Source: Chloroflexota bacterium (GTDB lineage: Bacteria; Chloroflexota; Anaerolineae; Anaerolineales; Villigracilaceae). From it: a DNA stretch of 64,000 nt. Where the stretch lies: the NCBI GenBank assembly GCA_016234485.1, contig JACRBL010000040.1, forward strand, positions 1 through 64,000. Direction: 5' to 3'. The notes under the pieces are model-generated. The model was not told the DNA's origin. It saw only the letters and a program-made list of their open reading frames with translations, and searched no databases. Below, in pieces: positions 10,921 through 59,344 of this stretch (position 1 is the stretch's first letter; every line of letters begins with the position of its first letter). The translations under genes and the position numbers were made by a program.

Positions 10921-12798
10921 ATGCGCGTCATCGGCACAGCAGGCCACGTAGACCACGGCAAGTCCACGCTCATCGCGGCGCTGACGGGCGTCCATCCTGA
11001 TCGCCTAAAGGAAGAACGCGAGCGCGAGATGACGATTGATCTCGGCTTCGGCTGGCTCACGCTTCCGAATGGCGAAGAAGTCGGCATCGTGGATGTGCCT
11101 GGTCACCGCGACTTCATCGAGAACATGCTGGCGGGCATCGGGGGCATAGATGCCGCCCTGCTCGTCATCGCCGCGGACGAGGGCATGATGCCGCAGACGC
11201 GCGAACACCTCGCCATCCTCGACCTGCTCCAAATCCCCGCCGGACTCATCGTCCTGACCAAAACCGACCTCGCTCCCGACTTCGACTGGCTGGGGTTGCT
11301 CGAAGCGGACGTTCGCGCCGCCCTGAGCGCCACCGTCCTCGCCGACGCGCCGATCGTGCGCGTCTCCGCCAAAAACAAGACGGGACTCGATTTACTAATT
11401 ACCAATCTCCAATTGCTTTTACAAGAAAAACCCTCCCGCCCGAACCTCAACCGCCCCCGCCTGCCGATTGACCGCGTCTTCACCATGGCGGGATTCGGAG
11501 CCGTCGTCACTGGTACGCTGACAGATGGCGCGCTCGCCGTGGGCGACGAAGTGGAAATTTTACCGAGCGGCAAAAAGGGACGCGTACGCGGCTTGCAGAC
11601 CCACAAGAAAAAAGAAGACCGCGCCGAGGCTGGCTCGCGTACGGCCGTCAATATTTCGGGAGTCGCGGCAGAGGAAATTCAGCGCGGCGAGGTGGTCGTC
11701 CACCTGAATCAATACCAGCCCTCCCGCCGCGCCGACGTGCGCCTGCATTTGCTGAAAGACATCGCCGCGCCGCTCAAACACGCCGCCGAAGTGAAAGTCT
11801 TCCTCGGCACGGCAGAGACGATCGCGGCCGTCCGCCTGCTGGGCGTGGACGAGCTCGCGCCCGCGTCCGACGGCTGGGCGCAACTCGAACTGCGCGACCC
11901 GCTCGTAGCCGTGCGCGGCGACCGAATCATCGTCCGCCGCCCCTCCCCCTCCGAGACGCTCGGCGGCGGCGTTATCGTTGACCCGCATCCGAAGGGACGC
12001 CACAAACGCTTCGACGAGGCCATTCTCAAATCATTGGAATCCCTCGCCCAGGGTTCCCCCGCGGACGTCTTACTCGAAGCCGCGCTGGCTCTCGGTCCCG
12101 CGTCCGTGAAGGATGTCATCGCGCGCTCGCGGTTGGAGGCCGAATCCGCCGCGTCCGCGCTGAAGGAACTGTTGGAGGCGGGTTCCCTGATATCGCTCGA
12201 AGATGGCAACAACCAGTTATTAATTGCCCTGTCACAATGGAACGCATTGCAGGATAAAACCTTGCAGATCGTCGGCGAGTATCACAAAGCATTTCCGCTT
12301 CGCAAAGGCATCCCGCGCGAGGAGTTGAAGAGCAAACTCAAATTATCTCCTCGCGTTTTCAATGCACTGATAACGTTGAACGTTAAACGTTCAACGTTAA
12401 ACGAACTCACAGCCTTCCTCTCTCTCCCGTCCCACAAAGTAACGTTCGATGGGGCGAATCAGGCCCAAATGTCGGGGTTGATGCGGAAGTTCGCGGCGAA
12501 TCCGTTTGGGCCGCCGAGCGTCAAAGAATGTCTGGCCGAGGTTGGGGAGGAAGTCTACAACGCGTTGATCGAAATGGGCGAGTTGACGACGGTTTCGCAG
12601 GAGGTCGTTTTCCGCACGCAGGATTACGAGGCGATGGTGGAAAAAGTGAAATCGGCCATTCGGCAAAAGGGACAAGTCACCCTGGCCGAAGTGCGCGACC
12701 TGCTCGGCACCACGCGCAAATACGTGCAGGCGCTGCTCGAGCATCTCGACGCGATTGGGGTGACGATGAGGGATGGTGAGGCGAGGAAGTTGAAGTAA
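10921..12798 (+). CDS. selB: Selenocysteine-specific elongation factor SelB
   Basis: A 625-residue GTPase that delivers Sec-tRNA(Sec) to the ribosome at UGA codons followed by a SECIS hairpin. The G1 motif GHVDHGKST is at residue 7 onward, with G2 region [11 protein letters not shown]3 DVPGH and G4 TKTD. Two beta-barrel domains follow ('[17 protein letters not shown]'), then C-terminal winged-helix repeats that bind SECIS RNA (about 375-625), the usual bacterial layout and length. [11 protein letters not shown] segment at 12370-12402, inside the winged-helix part, is encoded by a perfect DNA palindrome and looks inserted. A likely substrate, a UxxC redoxin, is at 57823. selA, selC and selD are not in the window. 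Confidence 0.95.
12370..12402. repeat. In-frame AACGTT palindrome within selB
   Basis: TTGAACGTTAAACGTTCAA with flanking AACG/CGTT units forms a palindrome read as [11 protein letters not shown] longer relative occurs in frame in recJ at 36043-36084. Confidence 0.85.
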
Positions 12799-51063: not shown

Positions 51064-51077
51064 GAAAGCGCTCCGAT

Positions 51078-51164
51078 AAAGAGCCAAACCGGGAAAACCC
51101 GGCGGCGCAAAGTCATGGATCTAAAGCCATGGTTATTTACATGGTCACGACCGCCAGACTGCCG
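51078..51164 (+). promoter_or_regulatory. c-di-GMP-I (GEMM) riboswitch-like element 1
   Basis: GCCAAACCGGGAAAACCCGG gives the P2 hairpin with its GNRA-like loop, GGCGCAAAGTC is the GEMM core (consensus GACGCAAAGCC), GGATCTAAAG matches the GGGTCTAAGG segment, and CGCCAGACTGCCG is the 3' strand. The strand and order match the class. A known ligand-binding G may differ, so affinity is unknown. Confidence 0.65.
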
Positions 51165-51246
51165 ATAAAAGCAAAACCGTCCAAAGACGGCGACACAGAG
51201 CCAGACATCTAAAGCCAGCGCACGCCGCTGACCAGGATCGGCCGGC
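51165..51246 (+). promoter_or_regulatory. c-di-GMP-I riboswitch-like element 2 (degenerate)
   Basis: GCAAAACCGTCCAAAGACGG is the P2 hairpin and CGACACAGAGCC a changed core (consensus GACGCAAAGCC, with CACAGAG in place of CGCAAAG); ACATCTAAAGCC follows. The 3' strand is weakly conserved. Probably a decayed copy. Confidence 0.5.
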
Positions 51247-51253
51247 CGCCCGA

Positions 51254-51341
51254 AAGGCAAAACCGGGGCAACCCGGCGACGCAAAGTCATGGGTCCTGAG
51301 CACAAGTTTTCGACCGGGATCGCCAGACTGCCGAAGAGCGA
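51254..51341 (+). promoter_or_regulatory. c-di-GMP-I riboswitch-like element 3
   Basis: The best preserved copy. GGCAAAACC with GGGGCAACCC forms P2 and a GCAA tetraloop, CGACGCAAAGTC is a full core, GGGTCCTGAG follows, and GCCAGACTGCCGAAG is the 3' strand whose TGCC pairs with GGCA as P1. It directly precedes an 11-bp terminator hairpin. Confidence 0.7.
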
Positions 51342-51445: not shown

Positions 51446-52465
51446 ATGCCAAAACCCCGTCCCCTCGACCCCGAAGCCAAACCCGACGACCGCGTAGACA
51501 ACGCCCTCCGTCCGCAGATGCTGACCGACCTGATCGGACAGGATCAGGTGAAGGAAAATCTCCACATCCTGATCCAGGCGGCCAAAAAACGCGGCGAGGC
51601 CCTCGACCACGTCCTCTTTTATGGACCGCCCGGCCTGGGCAAGACAACCCTCGCGCACGTGGTCGCGAACGAGATGGGAGTCAACATCAAGATCACCGCG
51701 GGACCTGTGATCGAGCGCGCGGGCGACCTGGCGGCGATTCTCACCAACCTTCGGGCGGGGGACGTGTTATTCATAGACGAAGTCCACCGCCTCGGCCGCG
51801 CCGTGGAGGAGGTACTCTACCCCGCCATGGAAGATTACGCGCTGGACATCGTGATCGGCAAGGGACCGTCGGCGCGCTCCATCCGCCTGAAACTGCCGCG
51901 CTTCACCGTGGTCGGCGCGACGACGCGGCTGGCGCTGGTGACCGCTCCATTGCGGGCACGCTTCGGCGCGGTCTATCGGCTGGACTACTACGACCCGTCC
52001 GCGATGCAGGCCATCGTCAAACGCGCGGCAGGGATGCTGAAAGTCCCCGTCGAAGCGGATGGCATCGAGGAGATCGCGCGCCGCGCCCGTGGGACGCCGC
52101 GCGTCGCGCTCCGTCTGTTGCGACGCGTGCGCGACTTCGCCCAAGTCCGCGCGGATGGGGCGGTCACGCGCAAGATCGCGAAAGACGCGCTCGACCTGCT
52201 CGCCGTGGATCCGCTCGGTCTCGATGACGTGGATCGCCGCGTGCTGAAGACCATCATTGAAAAATACAACGGCGGCCCCGTGGGATTGAACACCATCGCC
52301 GCCTCCATCAGCGAAGAACAAGACACCATCATGGACGTGGTGGAACCGTATCTCCTGCAACTGGGCTTCCTGGATCGCACCCCGCAGGGACGCGTCGCTA
52401 CCAAGTCCGCGTATGAGCATTTGGGATTTGAGTGGCGGGAAGAGGGACAGCCGAGGCTCTTATAG
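51446..52465 (+). CDS. ruvB: Holliday junction branch-migration helicase RuvB
   Basis: A 339-residue AAA+ motor that drives branch migration with RuvA. Walker [10 protein letters not shown] is near residue 62, Walker B '[15 protein letters not shown]', sensor 1 'VGATTR', the arginine finger region 'PLRARFGAV' and a C-terminal winged helix ending '[17 protein letters not shown]'. Length is canonical. ruvA and ruvC are not adjacent. Regulation may be separate from the upstream riboswitch array because a terminator and a new TATAAT box intervene. Confidence 0.96.
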
Positions 52466-55212: not shown

Positions 55213-55275
55213 ACAGGTACACACGAACAAGGTACACATGTAAACTTGAAACTTGGAACCTGAAACTTGACACCG
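55213..55275. repeat. Word-repeat spacer (ACAGGTACACAC / AAACTTGAAACTTGG)
   Basis: CAGGTACACACGAACAAGG, then AAACTTGAAACTTGGAACC and TGAAACTTGACACC. The words continue into the first codons of the next gene. Confidence 0.65.
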
Positions 55276-55938
55276 AAACACCTGACACTGGAACACCTCA
55301 ACACCGAAATCACATCCTGCCACCTCTGCCCCCGCCTCGTCGCGTGGAGAGAACAAGTCGCGCGCGAAAAGCGCAAGGCCTATCGCGATCAGGAATATTG
55401 GGGCAAACCCGTCCCTGGATTTGGCGACCCGAACGCCCGCGTCCTCGTGGTGGGACTCGCCCCCGGCGCGCACGGCTCGAACCGCACGGGACGCCAGTTC
55501 ACGGGCGACGCGTCGGGCGATTTTCTCTATCTCGCCCTCTTCCGCACGGGGTTTGTGAACCAGCCCCACTCTTCCGCGCGAGGCGACGGGTTGACTCTCC
55601 ACGATATGTACATCACCGCCTCGGGACGTTGCGCCCCGCCCGACAACAAACCGTCCCGCGAGGAATTAGACAATTGCCAACCTTTCCTCGAGCGCGAAAT
55701 CGAAATCATCCAACCGAAAGTGATCGTCGTTTTGGGTCGCGTCGCTTTTGAGAGAATCCTACGAATATTTTCCTTCCGTCATTCGAATTTCACGTTTGCT
55801 CACGGCGCGACCTTTGACCTTCGACCTACAACCTTGATTTGTTCCTATCATCCTAGCCAGCAAAATACTCTGACCGGAAAACTGACCGTCAAGATGTTTG
55901 ATGAGATTTGGCAGAAAGCGAAATCACTTTTGAAATGA
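55267..55938 (+). CDS. Uracil-DNA glycosylase, family 5 (UdgB-like)
   Basis: A 223-residue iron-sulfur uracil-DNA glycosylase. The FeS cysteines begin with CHLC (residues about 18-21) and include one in 'GRCAPPDNKPS'. The active-site loop 'GLAPGAHGSNRTGRQFTGD' has Ala where family 4 has Glu, typical of family 5, and the DNA-binding 'HPSQQN' motif is near the end. The first residues (TPKHLTLEHLNTE) are translated from word-repeat DNA; the start is TTG at 55267. The stop overlaps the next ATG. Confidence 0.88.
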   Translation: MTPKHLTLEHLNTEITSCHLCPRLVAWREQVAREKRKAYRDQEYWGKPVPGFGDPNARVLVVGLAPGAHGSNRTGRQFTGDASGDFLYLALFRTGFVNQPHSSARGDGLTLHDMYITASGRCAPPDNKPSREELDNCQPFLEREIEIIQPKVIVVLGRVAFERILRIFSFRHSNFTFAHGATFDLRPTTLICSYHPSQQNTLTGKLTVKMFDEIWQKAKSLLK

Positions 55939-56735
55939 AAATATTAAAAGTTTTTCTTTTTGGCCTCGTTATCATTCTCGTTCTCGCCTTCGCGTGGTTT
56001 GTCAATTGGGCGAATCATCCGCTCCCTGCCGCGCCTGAGGCTTTGGCCGCACTTCACGGTGATGAGCGCGTCAATGTTTATGAAGCGAAAAAGTACATTT
56101 CTTTTTCACCACATATTTCATGGGGAACGAAAGAGTATATAACTTTTTCGCCTGCCGATCCGCAACAAGATGTTTACACTGGGTTCATCTTTTATCCTGG
56201 CGCGCACGTGGACCCGCGCGCCTATGCCGCGCCTCTTCGTGAAATTGCCGCTCATGGTTATTACGTTATTTTGGTGACCATGCCATTGAATATGGCGGTC
56301 TTTGATATTAACGCCGCAAATTATTTTTATAATGCCGAAGAGCGGTATTCGGATTTGCAATGGGTCATTGGCGGACATTCCCTTGGCGGAGTAGCCGCGA
56401 CGATGAATGCAGAAAGGAACTCGTCGGAGGTGCGCGGCCTTATCCTTTGGGGAGCGTTTGTGAGCAATAATCGTTTCCAGAAATTAGATATGCCCGTTCT
56501 CTCCATTTATGGTACACGAGATTTCACAGGTTTGGAAACCTTCGAAAACGCGCGCGCCTTCCTTCCGCACGATACCCAATTCCTTGTCATCGAAGGCGGC
56601 AACCACTCCCAGTTTAGTGATTATGGCCTCCAACCTGGCGACAACGAAGCCACCATCTCCCGCGCCAACCAGCAAGCCCAAACCGTCGAAGCCGTGGTCA
56701 AATTTCTCGAATTCTTAAAATCCGCTCCTCGCTAA
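55935..56735 (+). CDS. Membrane-anchored alpha/beta hydrolase
   Basis: A 266-residue protein: one N-terminal membrane helix (about 3-22), then an alpha/beta hydrolase domain with nucleophile elbow GHSLGG, 'SIYGTRDFTGLE' carrying the acid, and the histidine in 'GGNHSQFSDYG'. It matches the 'alpha/beta hydrolase family, AB_hydrolase_5' type, whose substrates are unknown. The ATG at 55935 overlaps the glycosylase stop by ATGA, so the two are coupled, perhaps only through gene packing. Confidence 0.8.
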   Translation: MKILKVFLFGLVIILVLAFAWFVNWANHPLPAAPEALAALHGDERVNVYEAKKYISFSPHISWGTKEYITFSPADPQQDVYTGFIFYPGAHVDPRAYAAPLREIAAHGYYVILVTMPLNMAVFDINAANYFYNAEERYSDLQWVIGGHSLGGVAATMNAERNSSEVRGLILWGAFVSNNRFQKLDMPVLSIYGTRDFTGLETFENARAFLPHDTQFLVIEGGNHSQFSDYGLQPGDNEATISRANQQAQTVEAVVKFLEFLKSAPR

Positions 56736-56849: not shown

Positions 56850-57821
56850 ATGAAACGCTGGCAAAAAACCATCCTCATCTCAATCACCGTCCTCGCGCTC
56901 CTCGCCTGCATCGGTCCCTTCCTCGTCCCCGTGCCGCCCCTCGAAGGGACAGTGACCGAATCTGAACTCGCCGACCCCGATAGCAAATTTATCGAAGTGG
57001 ACGACGTGACCATCCATTACAAGGAACAGGGAAGCGGTGAGACGACCTTCATCCTCCTGCACGGATTCGGCGCGAGCGTCTTCTCGTGGCGTGAGGTTAT
57101 GGACGATTTCGCGGCGCGCGGCCGCGTCATCGCCTACGACCGTCCCGCCTTCGGCCTCACCGAACGTCCCATGCCCGAAACGTGGACGGCCAATCCCTAC
57201 GGCATGGACGCCAACATCGAACTCCTGCGCGGGTTGATGGACTCGCTCAAAGTCGAGAAAGCGATTCTCGTCGGCAACTCGGCGGGCGGCGCGGTGTCCG
57301 TCGCGTTTGCGCTGCGCTATCCTGAAAGGGTAGAGTCGCTCATTTTGGTTGACCCCGGCCTGGGCGGCGGACGCGGACGCGAGTTTCCCACGTGGGCCTT
57401 GCCGCTCATGCGGAGTCCGCAAATGCGTCATGTCGGCCCGCTTCTCGTCCGCGATATTGCCGTGGATGGCGACGAAACGATTCTGCGCGCCTGGTCGGAC
57501 GCGTCGAAAGTCACCGCTGAAATTTTCGACGGCTATCACAAACCGCTTCAAGCGCACAACTGGGACCGCGCCCTTTACGAACTGACGTTTGCGCCTCCGT
57601 ATCCCGAACTGCGGCCGTTGTTGCCCAATTTGAAAACGCGCGCGTTCATCATCGGCGGTCAAGATGACCGTCTTATTCGTGCCTGGTATTTCGAAGCCAT
57701 CGCGCTCGAAATCCCTGGCGCGCAACTCGTCTTGTTGCCGCGTTGCGGACACGTCCCGCACGAAGAATGTCCCGACGCGTTACTCACGAACGTATTCCAG
57801 TTTCTTGATTCCCTTCCATAA
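56850..57821 (+). CDS. Membrane-anchored alpha/beta hydrolase
   Basis: A 323-residue protein with an N-terminal membrane helix (about 7-27) and an alpha/beta hydrolase domain: oxyanion region 'ILLHGFGASVFSWRE', nucleophile elbow GNSAGG, the acid in 'IGGQDDRLI' and the histidine in 'RCGHVPHEE'. It is a different subgroup from the preceding hydrolase. Substrate unknown. It starts immediately after the TCTCTGC repeat; the selenoprotein gene follows its stop by one base. Confidence 0.85.
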   Translation: MKRWQKTILISITVLALLACIGPFLVPVPPLEGTVTESELADPDSKFIEVDDVTIHYKEQGSGETTFILLHGFGASVFSWREVMDDFAARGRVIAYDRPAFGLTERPMPETWTANPYGMDANIELLRGLMDSLKVEKAILVGNSAGGAVSVAFALRYPERVESLILVDPGLGGGRGREFPTWALPLMRSPQMRHVGPLLVRDIAVDGDETILRAWSDASKVTAEIFDGYHKPLQAHNWDRALYELTFAPPYPELRPLLPNLKTRAFIIGGQDDRLIRAWYFEAIALEIPGAQLVLLPRCGHVPHEECPDALLTNVFQFLDSLP

Positions 57822-57822
57822 A

Positions 57823-58299
57823 ATGAACAACATCCTCACCCCCGGCGAACTCGCCCCCGATTTTGAAATTGATGATCTCAACGCCCGCCGCATCCGTCTT
57901 TCCACCCTGCGCGGCCAACCCGTCCTGCTCTACTTCCTGCGCGGCTTCATGTGACCGTATTGCCGCGCGTCGTTGGCGCGCTTGCGAAACGATTACGAAA
58001 AATTCTCACAGCGCAACGTGACCATCCTGACCGTTGGCCCGAACACCGAAGCCGCCTTCCAAAAATATTGGCGCGAAGAAAAAATGCCCTTCATCGGCAT
58101 CCCCGATCCCGAGCATCGCGTCGCGCTTCTCTATCGTCAACAGGTCAACATCTTCAAACTTGGCCGCATGCCGCTCCTCTGCATCGTGGACAAAAATGGC
58201 CGCATCCGCTACGCCCACTACGGCGCATCCATGTCCGACATCCCCGAAAATGAAACCCTGCTCAACGTAATAGACCAACTCACCGCCTCATCCAACTGA
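57823..58299 (+). CDS. Redoxin (AhpC/TSA-like) selenoprotein with UxxC motif
   Basis: A 158-residue thioredoxin-fold protein if TGA at 57952-57954 is read as selenocysteine (U44). The frame opens 'APDFEIDDLNARRIRL' and 'VLLYFLRGFM', then U-P-Y-C, 'RASLARLRNDYEKF', 'VTILTVGPN' and 'MPLLCIVDKNGRIRYAH'. Cysteine homologues of this peroxiredoxin-like group carry CPxC at this position. A hairpin at 57964-57980 (five GC pairs, loop GTCGTTG) sits 9 bases after the TGA, where bacterial SECIS elements lie. selB is at 10921. It probably reduces peroxides or disulfides in the cytoplasm; no signal peptide. Confidence 0.9.
57955..57986 (+). promoter_or_regulatory. Candidate bacterial SECIS element
   Basis: Downstream of the TGA: stem CGCGC/GCGCG (57964-57968 with 57976-57980) with a seven-base loop that contains GU. 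GC at 57962-57963 can extend it against GC at 57984-57985, leaving bulged U residues at 57982-57983, as in known bacterial SECIS hairpins. Confidence 0.65.
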
Positions 58300-58300
58300 C

Positions 58301-59344
58301 ATGACCATCGGACGCATTGCCTTCCTCGGCTCAGGCGAGACTTCCCTCGCGGGCGGCCGCATCTTCGAGACGCTCGCCCGCCTCCATCCGGACCTCGCGC
58401 GGGTCGCGATCCTCGAGACGCCTGCCGGCTTCGAGCTTAACTCCGCCTCCGTCGCGGGCCGCGTCGCCGACTTTCTGCGGACGCGCCTGCAAAACTACTC
58501 CCCACGCGTGGACGTGGTCCCCGCCCGCAAACGCAACTCCCCCTTCAGCCCCGATGATCCCGAAATCTTAAAACCACTCCTCGACGCCAACCTCATCTTC
58601 ATGGGGCCAGGCAGTCCCACCTACGCGGCGCGCCAACTGCAAGGGACGCTCGCATGGGACATCGTCCGCGCCCGTCATCGCATGGGAGCCACGCTGGTCT
58701 TCGCCTCCGCCGCCACCATCTCTGTGGGCGCGTGGGTTCTGCCCGTTTACGAAATCTACAAAGTGGGTCAAGACGTCCACTCCCTGCCTGGTTTGAATAT
58801 CTTCTCCGATTTCGGCGTTCCGCTCTCCTTCATCCCGCACTGGAACAACGCCGAGGGTGGAGCTGATCTGGATACCAGCCGCTGTTTCATCGGCATGGAC
58901 AGGTTCGCGGAATGGTGCGACATGCTTCCGTCCGATCATACGATTGTCGGATTGGATGAGCATACGGGATTGATCCTGGATTTTGAGAAAAACGAATGCA
59001 CAGTCAGCGGCGTCAGTTCGGTCTCGCTCGTGCGTGAATGTGACCCCGAAATTTACGCGGCAGGAAAGACCTTCCCGCTGAGCGCGTTGGGGAATTTCAC
59101 TCGCCCCGCGCTGGAAGATGGCATTTCCCCCCAAGCGTTGGAGTTGATCCACCACGTGGCGCGCATCGAAGAAGATTCTCCCGACGCGGAGACGCTGTCC
59201 CTTCTGGACGCGCGTGGAAAAGCGCGCGCGTCGAAGGACTGGGCCGCGTCCGATCGTCTTCGCGATGAAATCGCCGCGCACGGCTGGGCGGTGAAAGACA
59301 CTGCCGCGGGGCAGACCTTGAAAAAAAACTCCATCCAATCTTAA
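58301..59344 (+). CDS. Peptidase S51-like protein with CysRS-like C-terminal tail
   Basis: A 347-residue protein. Residues 1-265 resemble cyanophycinase/dipeptidase E (S51) or type-1 glutamine-amidotransferase-like folds: 'IAFLGSGETSLAGG', 'IFMGPGSPTYAARQL' and a nucleophile-position segment 'LVFASAATISVGAW'. The canonical GxSAG elbow reads ASAA here. Residues about 300-345 ('ARGKARASKDWAASDRLRDE', then IAAHGWAVKDTAAG) match the C-terminal helix pair of cysteinyl-tRNA synthetases. It begins two bases after the selenoprotein stop, so it may be part of the same operon. Confidence 0.7.
   Translation: MTIGRIAFLGSGETSLAGGRIFETLARLHPDLARVAILETPAGFELNSASVAGRVADFLRTRLQNYSPRVDVVPARKRNSPFSPDDPEILKPLLDANLIFMGPGSPTYAARQLQGTLAWDIVRARHRMGATLVFASAATISVGAWVLPVYEIYKVGQDVHSLPGLNIFSDFGVPLSFIPHWNNAEGGADLDTSRCFIGMDRFAEWCDMLPSDHTIVGLDEHTGLILDFEKNECTVSGVSSVSLVRECDPEIYAAGKTFPLSALGNFTRPALEDGISPQALELIHHVARIEEDSPDAETLSLLDARGKARASKDWAASDRLRDEIAAHGWAVKDTAAGQTLKKNSIQS

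Follow-up and report, generated by a model that had tools for sequence, protein, structure and literature searches.

The DNA analysed here (the window, a stretch of 64,000 nucleotides from a Chloroflexota bacterium) contains a redoxin-like reading frame on the plus strand, at 57823-58299, whose sole interruption is a TGA codon at 57952-57954, and the question is whether this codon ends a protein or encodes part of one. Translation table 11 splits the frame at the TGA, as a preliminary description of the window had foreseen for ordinary annotation. The same description regarded the two sides as frame-matched halves of a single protein, and this view was borne out: translated with TGA as U, the frame, whose own true stop is also TGA, gives one AhpC/TSA-fold product of 158 residues that matches PF00578 (AhpC-TSA) at 3.2e-23 over residues 8-130 and also Redoxin (PF08534), in both cases across the TGA. 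The codon would encode residue 44, a putative selenocysteine (Sec), within the active-site stretch FLRGFM-U-PYCRASLARL, and the TGC at 57961-57963 encodes Cys47, the second residue of the UxxC motif (here UPYC). The genome (4.46 Mb in 68 contigs, 94% complete) has 11 AhpC-TSA matches, and a TGA lies inside only the match at 57823-58299.

A pseudogene or a sequencing error at the TGA, either of which would leave two broken halves, could account for the split made by table 11 and for a downstream hairpin that in the window alone is only mildly unusual. However, the same codon is TGA in 92 of 99 related loci, spread over 90 genomes of the class, and the protein downstream is conserved, so that this explanation is negligible. 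The 99 aligned loci, the window locus among them, stem from a search across the class to which the window belongs, in which 104 of 298 genomes gave matches at E <= 1e-15; 13 further places stayed outside the alignment, two beginning past codon 44 and 11 being weak, stop-free matches of 30-36% identity. Besides TGA, query codon 44 is TGC in one locus (L066) and TCA and ACC in one each (the distant paralogues L106 and L107), and four partial matches have no aligned residue there. When the family profile was run more widely, against 400 genomes of the phylum, 68 of them gave matches at E <= 1e-25, and 40 more stretches were drawn from these, mostly picked for carrying TGA. The 127 family loci used for analysis of the selenocysteine insertion element (SECIS) were selected as TGA-bearing, with the distant TGA loci L094 and L195-L197 omitted from the count; among them Arg at residue 40 is shared by 125, Cys at residue 47 by 126 (one TGA locus, L105, lacks it) and Pro at residue 117 by 126. 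In close homologues the sense codon aligned with the TGA is always Cys (L066, L148 and L149). Residue 44 in homologues is thus a predicted U or a Cys, and not Trp, Arg or a genuine end, the outcomes that the preliminary description had named as contrary to its reading. We regard 57823-58299 as a confirmed selenoprotein gene on comparative evidence only, and the selenoprotein reading of the earlier description as supported at the level of sequence.

The machinery for inserting Sec is present in this genome. A gene for the Sec-specific elongation factor SelB lies at 10921-12798 on the plus strand (TIGR00475, 343.5 bits, over the cut-off, with SelB winged-helix domains), about 45 kb from the redoxin gene, as the preliminary description had stated, and selA (558.3 bits), selD (353.9 bits, both over their cut-offs) and tRNA-Sec (69.3 bits; anticodon tca according to ARAGORN), on which it had made its reading depend, were all found elsewhere in the genome. 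The selD gene (L010, contig C8:234851-235783, minus strand) has one in-frame TGA and so is itself a predicted selenoprotein gene; the fold after that TGA has a GUU loop, the same as that of the putative SECIS in the window. Across the class, selA occurs in 85 of 90 genomes with the TGA form and in 165 of 208 without it (Fisher p 9e-4), and five TGA-form genomes gave no selA at 1e-40; as selA is common in the class (250 of 298 genomes overall), this association is mild support only. It has also to be considered that the UGA is read through in some other way, as Trp or another residue, by a suppressor tRNA or by leaky termination, with the hairpin being merely stimulatory. UGA has both meanings in this family, as the window gene and other members end in TGA (among 125 of the 127 loci the true stops are 52 TGA, 38 TAG and 35 TAA, the remaining two being cut off), and the Sec reading is built from sequence comparison. 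Nevertheless, we consider such readthrough very improbable in view of the invariant Cys at the aligned sense codon of close homologues, the presence of selA, selB, selD and tRNA-Sec together, the GTT loop shared with the SECIS of selD and the occurrence of a TGA in no more than one of the 11 places where the genome matches AhpC-TSA.

The candidate SECIS core of the window occupies 57964-57982 (plus strand), with a stem of 7 bp (57965-57971 paired with 57975-57981) and a loop, GUU, at 57972-57974. The bacterial SECIS (bSECIS) model, as given in a 2026 review (PMC13188914), specifies a loop of 3-9 nt with a G in the first two positions, a stem of 4-16 bp, a distance from UGA to loop of 16-37 nt and a minimum free energy of at most -7.5 kcal/mol. 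The window hairpin agrees on all four points, with its GUU loop lying 17 nt after the UGA and the 19-mer folding at -11.6 kcal/mol, and the claim of the preliminary description that a hairpin follows the TGA at a SECIS distance therefore holds. Among 5000 synonymous recodings, 1.4% fold equally well (z -2.3), and against dinucleotide shuffles the 45-mer scores z -1.8 and the 19-mer z -2.2. Taken alone, then, the hairpin of the window stands out only slightly and is weak evidence for a SECIS; it is the comparison across relatives that lifts the SECIS and TGA reading beyond chance. Rfam has no SECIS family at the redoxin locus, the only sub-threshold match being GNAS-AS1_1 (E 4.2), which was dismissed as chance. 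With minimum energy as the sole criterion the 45-mers folded into a mixture of hairpins, a matter that was settled by comparison of pairing registers and by synonymous constraint. In the 92 class loci, synonymous variation collapses right after the TGA and the constraint is strongest there, with z scores of 9.7, 6.2 and 8.6 at codons 52, 53 and 54 and of 5.9 at codon 49.

Comparison of the 127 loci revealed that this element is found in two registers, a feature absent from the preliminary description. With assignment requiring at least 5 of 6 pairs, 125 loci fit one of the two registers: 106 are of an ancestral type, in which positions 23-28 pair with 33-38 (TGA being 1-3), 19, including the window, are of a relocated type, in which 14-19 pair with 25-30, and two (L109 and L119) fit neither. 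The SECIS is therefore 9 nt closer to the UGA in the window clade than in other relatives. The ancestral-type loop is AGTT in 98 of 102 distinct sequences and the relocated one is AGTTG or a close variant; GTT is present in 101 of the 102 and in 18 of the 19. Counts of pairing and folding per register are partly circular, because the groups were defined by pairing; with that proviso, 99.7% of cells in the 102 ancestral-type sequences are paired, against 95.4% with columns permuted (maximum of 1000 permutations, 96.7%), and in 25 of the 106 loci the 45-mer as a whole folds best into another hairpin, with a local fold retaining the SECIS in all 106. Changes on both sides of the ancestral-type stem are seen at pair 24-37 (91 G-C and 9 C-G), and pair 25-36 is G-C in 73 sequences, G-T in 24, A-T in 4 and T-A in 1. 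The stem of the 19 relocated loci varies by wobble changes, on one side only.

Synonymous constraint follows the same division. In the 106 ancestral-type loci it is found at codons +8 to +11 (z 11.0, 7.1, 12.5 and 4.7), with codon +10 being TTG in every locus, and codons +3 and +5 score high as well. For the 19 relocated loci the constraint covers codons +4 to +9 (z 2.8 to 5.2) and is lacking at +10 and +11 (z 0.2 and -2.2), and two high-scoring codons lie outside the SECIS (+20, z 3.5; +55, z 3.1). By these scores the codon constraint has shifted together with the predicted SECIS. The encoded residues appear to have gone with it, as Ala-Gln-Leu at residues 52-54 of the ancestral type (RHMAQLRQ) recurs at residues 49-51 of the relocated type (RAQLARLR). 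A tree of 135 proteins, from which the 15 residues after U were removed so that the SECIS-coded segment was ignored, places the 19 relocated loci in one clade (support 97/91), which branches from within the ancestral-type loci and has L148, a Cys form, as its sister (93/95, below the tool's star); the tree has few columns and, by the tool's warnings, an unsettled bootstrap. A single clade within the ancestral-type family and a shifted constraint suggest a single relocation that brought the SECIS three codons closer to the UGA, with Ala-Gln-Leu moving alongside. A concrete path for such a shift is offered by 14 of the 106 ancestral-type loci, in which four inner pairs of the new register can already form.

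Three genomes (G637, G651 and G562) hold a relocated copy and a second copy of the ancestral type (L180, L182 and L183), one per register, as would be expected if the two registers marked two ancient paralogues and not a relocation within one lineage. We give this possibility a small but appreciable chance. The relocated clade, however, branches inside the ancestral-type family on a tree free of SECIS-coded residues; the second copies fall elsewhere, among other sequences of the class; and the relocated copies in the three genomes keep the alpha/beta-hydrolase neighbour of many ancestral-type copies, which the second copies do not have upstream. Immediately upstream of the second copies, or overlapping them, is a hydrophobic protein of 115 residues. 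We put at roughly 94% the probability of the main reading: that UGA 44 is read as Sec through SelB and a GUU-loop hairpin, in a redoxin of thioredoxin/peroxiredoxin fold whose SECIS has been relocated once.

The Cys forms differ in what they have kept of this element. L066, in genome G289, has ACT CAA CTT in place of the GCG CAG TTG of Sec loci, and the SECIS motif is lost. In the same genome selA is found in two overlapping pieces (G289:C6:30365-31518), neither over the cut-off, through decay or an assembly error. L149, from a metagenome-assembled genome (MAG) labelled Bacillota, has no such hairpin, and selA was not found in its genome. L148, from an Anaerolineales MAG with selA, has retained five pairs of the relocated register, with a loop of AGTTA; five pairs are reached by 0.55% of synonymous recodings and by 0.05% with the GTT loop as well. 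Since another fold is the minimum-energy one for its 45-mer, only its register and loop mark the L148 hairpin as a relic. Remnant SECIS elements in Cys homologues have been described before (PMC1794560). The Anaerolineales label of L148 and the kinship groups together point to Chloroflexota, probably Anaerolineae, as the origin of the window. A second redoxin family, from the same bacterial family, also carries TGA (L195, L196 and L197), with a UMQC motif and a hairpin loop of AGTTG; the Cys form of that family, L198, has AGCTG instead.

An AlphaFold2 model of the redoxin (mean pLDDT 91.1, pTM 0.88) is closest in Foldseek to Bcp/AhpE-type peroxiredoxins (3drn_A, TM 0.88/0.91; 1xvw_B, 0.87/0.86), and ResA also ranks high (1su9_B, 0.75/0.86). 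Peroxiredoxins have a conserved active-site Arg, and in ResA/TlpA-type thioredoxins the Pro of the facing loop is a cis-Pro and the protein carries a membrane anchor or an export signal. In profile alignments, U44 falls on the first Cys of ResA (3c71) and of 3hdc, with Cys at both positions of the motif and Pro opposite P117. The Cys motif and the facing-loop Pro are thus shared with the ResA-like proteins, from which the window redoxin differs in having Sec for the first Cys, in an N-terminus (MNNILTPGELAPDF) that shows, by eye only, no hydrophobic stretch to serve as anchor or export signal, and in reaching 53.1 of 170 bits with the NCBIfam ResA model. Aligned with the Bcp-type 2ywn and 2cx3, by contrast, U44 falls on Thr or Ser, C47 on the peroxidatic Cys and P117 on the conserved Arg.

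These alignments bear on whether the protein is a true peroxiredoxin with Sec as its peroxidatic residue, as PF00578 being the best domain and the Foldseek ranking of Bcp/AhpE-type structures might suggest. The prospect is slim: it is C47 and not U44 that takes the peroxidatic position, the residue aligned with the active-site Arg is Pro117 in 126 of the 127 loci, and both Cys positions and the Pro agree with ResA and 3hdc. The peroxiredoxin motif PxxxTxxC/U, as quoted in PMC13188914, also fails to appear, its Pro column being Arg (R40) in 125 of 127 loci, where the paralogue L107 has Pro, and its Thr column being Sec. The whole fold is nevertheless shared with the Bcp/PrxQ and AhpE peroxiredoxins (2ywn, 2cx3, 3drn and 1xvw), relative to which the window redoxin has Sec for the Thr of TxxC and Pro for Arg. 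The assertion in the preliminary description that the TGA stands at the catalytic Cys of CPxC accordingly applies to ResA-type and Cys-form homologues and not to true peroxiredoxins, which have Thr there; similarly, the Cys encoded at 57961 is indeed kept, as was claimed, but is not simply a resolving Cys, because U44 and C47 align with the Thr and Cys of the PrxQ/Bcp TxxC. The redoxin is Prx-like: its active site resembles that of ResA and its scaffold comes closest to the peroxiredoxins. We infer that it works as a thiol:disulfide oxidoreductase, disulfide reduction being favoured over peroxidase chemistry at odds of nearly two to one.

Such an enzyme would be made as follows. SelB carrying Sec-tRNA(Sec) would bind the GUU-loop hairpin 17 nt downstream of UGA 44, which would be read as Sec, to give one cytosolic-looking 158-residue redoxin of thioredoxin/peroxiredoxin fold with the N-terminal Sec of a UxxC motif and a Pro at the position of the Pro of ResA. 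The selenolate of Sec44 may attack a disulfide, a sulfenic acid or a peroxide, and may then form a selenenylsulfide with Cys47 that a thioredoxin-type reductase would reset.

An alpha/beta hydrolase (56850-57821, plus strand; PF12697, 2.7e-26) ends 1 nt before the redoxin ATG, and relatives of it form the largest cluster of upstream neighbours, in 28 of 122 loci; as these neighbours vary, a strictly conserved redoxin operon was rejected. A gene of the uracil-DNA-glycosylase superfamily (55267-55938) and an Abhydrolase_5 gene (55908-56735), both on the plus strand, precede the hydrolase and redoxin, and in several relatives what appears by eye to be the same glycosylase lies directly upstream of the redoxin. 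Further upstream, two tandem c-di-GMP-I riboswitches (51072-51166 and 51246-51335, plus strand) lie just ahead of ruvB (51446-52465), an unexpected pairing.

Downstream, the ATG of an S51-like protein of cyanophycinase-type fold (58301-59344, plus strand) lies 1 nt after the redoxin stop. Its relation to the S51 structure 6nqc is seen in both sequence (profile, 7.2e-9) and fold (Foldseek, 7.1e-16), its C-terminal CysRS-tail domain (residues 296-339) matches PF23493 at 1e-8, the profile comparison that gave 6nqc also gave CysRS chains, and Ser136, a candidate catalytic Ser, and His180 do not vary across the 22 rows of alignment A3. Our literature search on S51 with CysRS returned nothing relevant. 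The coupling of this gene to the redoxin, which the preliminary description had noted, holds for all 19 relocated loci and for L108 and L148, with a gap of 1 nt in 16 of the 19 and a longer one in L148, but it is bound to that clade: 95 of 298 class genomes have the gene and, by coordinates, only 14 of them have it next to the redoxin, with another 3 having it no more than 2 kb away. An obligate partnership was rejected on this count, and also because G164, from the window's family, has an ancestral-type SECIS and carries the gene on a contig other than that of the redoxin. The association of register and S51-like neighbour counts as one event, because the relocated loci form one clade, and the two may have arisen together, since both are already present in the Cys-form sister L148. 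One could imagine a unit gated by selenium and made up of the relocated SECIS together with the S51/CysRS-tail gene close behind it: when Sec is lacking, ribosomes would halt at codon 44 and never reach the end of the redoxin, and the S51-like ATG, 1 nt beyond that end, would need termination-reinitiation, so that the S51-like protein would be made only with selenium. We regard this as unlikely. If it were true, the UGA of the redoxin would be a selenium sensor for the operon besides being an active-site codon.

The class to which this gene belongs has long been known, as the preliminary description recognised, and the window gene is a further example. Prx-like selenoproteins with PF00578 and UxxC or UxxU are listed in PMC13188914, and a "Prx-like protein" is named in PMC1088965. 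The window redoxin was assigned to this class by its PF00578 domain and its UxxC motif, and was set beside published representatives by description; it shares with the Prx-like thiol:disulfide oxidoreductase selenoproteins the AhpC-TSA domain, the N-terminal Sec of UxxC and a SECIS directly after the UGA. No NCBIfam model reaches its cut-off for the window redoxin; the best, the SelL-related redox protein NF040769, matches all 22 members of alignment A1 and gives 67.7 bits for the window redoxin, below the cut-off of 120. PMC5029168, a 2016 survey, reported 32 Prx-like selenoproteins in 28 organisms, PMC1794560 listed three selenoproteins for Chloroflexi as then sequenced, and a search within PMC12013277 gave no match; the TGA form was found here in 90 of 298 genomes of one class. 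A known class of selenoprotein would thus be used across many genomes of a single bacterial class, and gene calling with table 11 cuts each copy in two at the TGA.

Going by the literature searched, the new part is the moved SECIS: the titles and opening lines of abstracts covered in our search on moved bacterial SECIS elements contained no account of one. Relative to the bSECIS model, we describe one gene family with the element in two registers 9 nt apart, and in the window clade a spacing of 16-17 nt, at the model's lower limit of 16. The family may represent a natural recoding experiment, in which the same SECIS loop in the same gene occupies two registers and both the codon constraint and the encoded amino acids move along with it. 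Having two registers would make two matters testable, namely the minimum distance between UGA and SECIS and the way in which residues next to an active site are dictated by a signal in the RNA.
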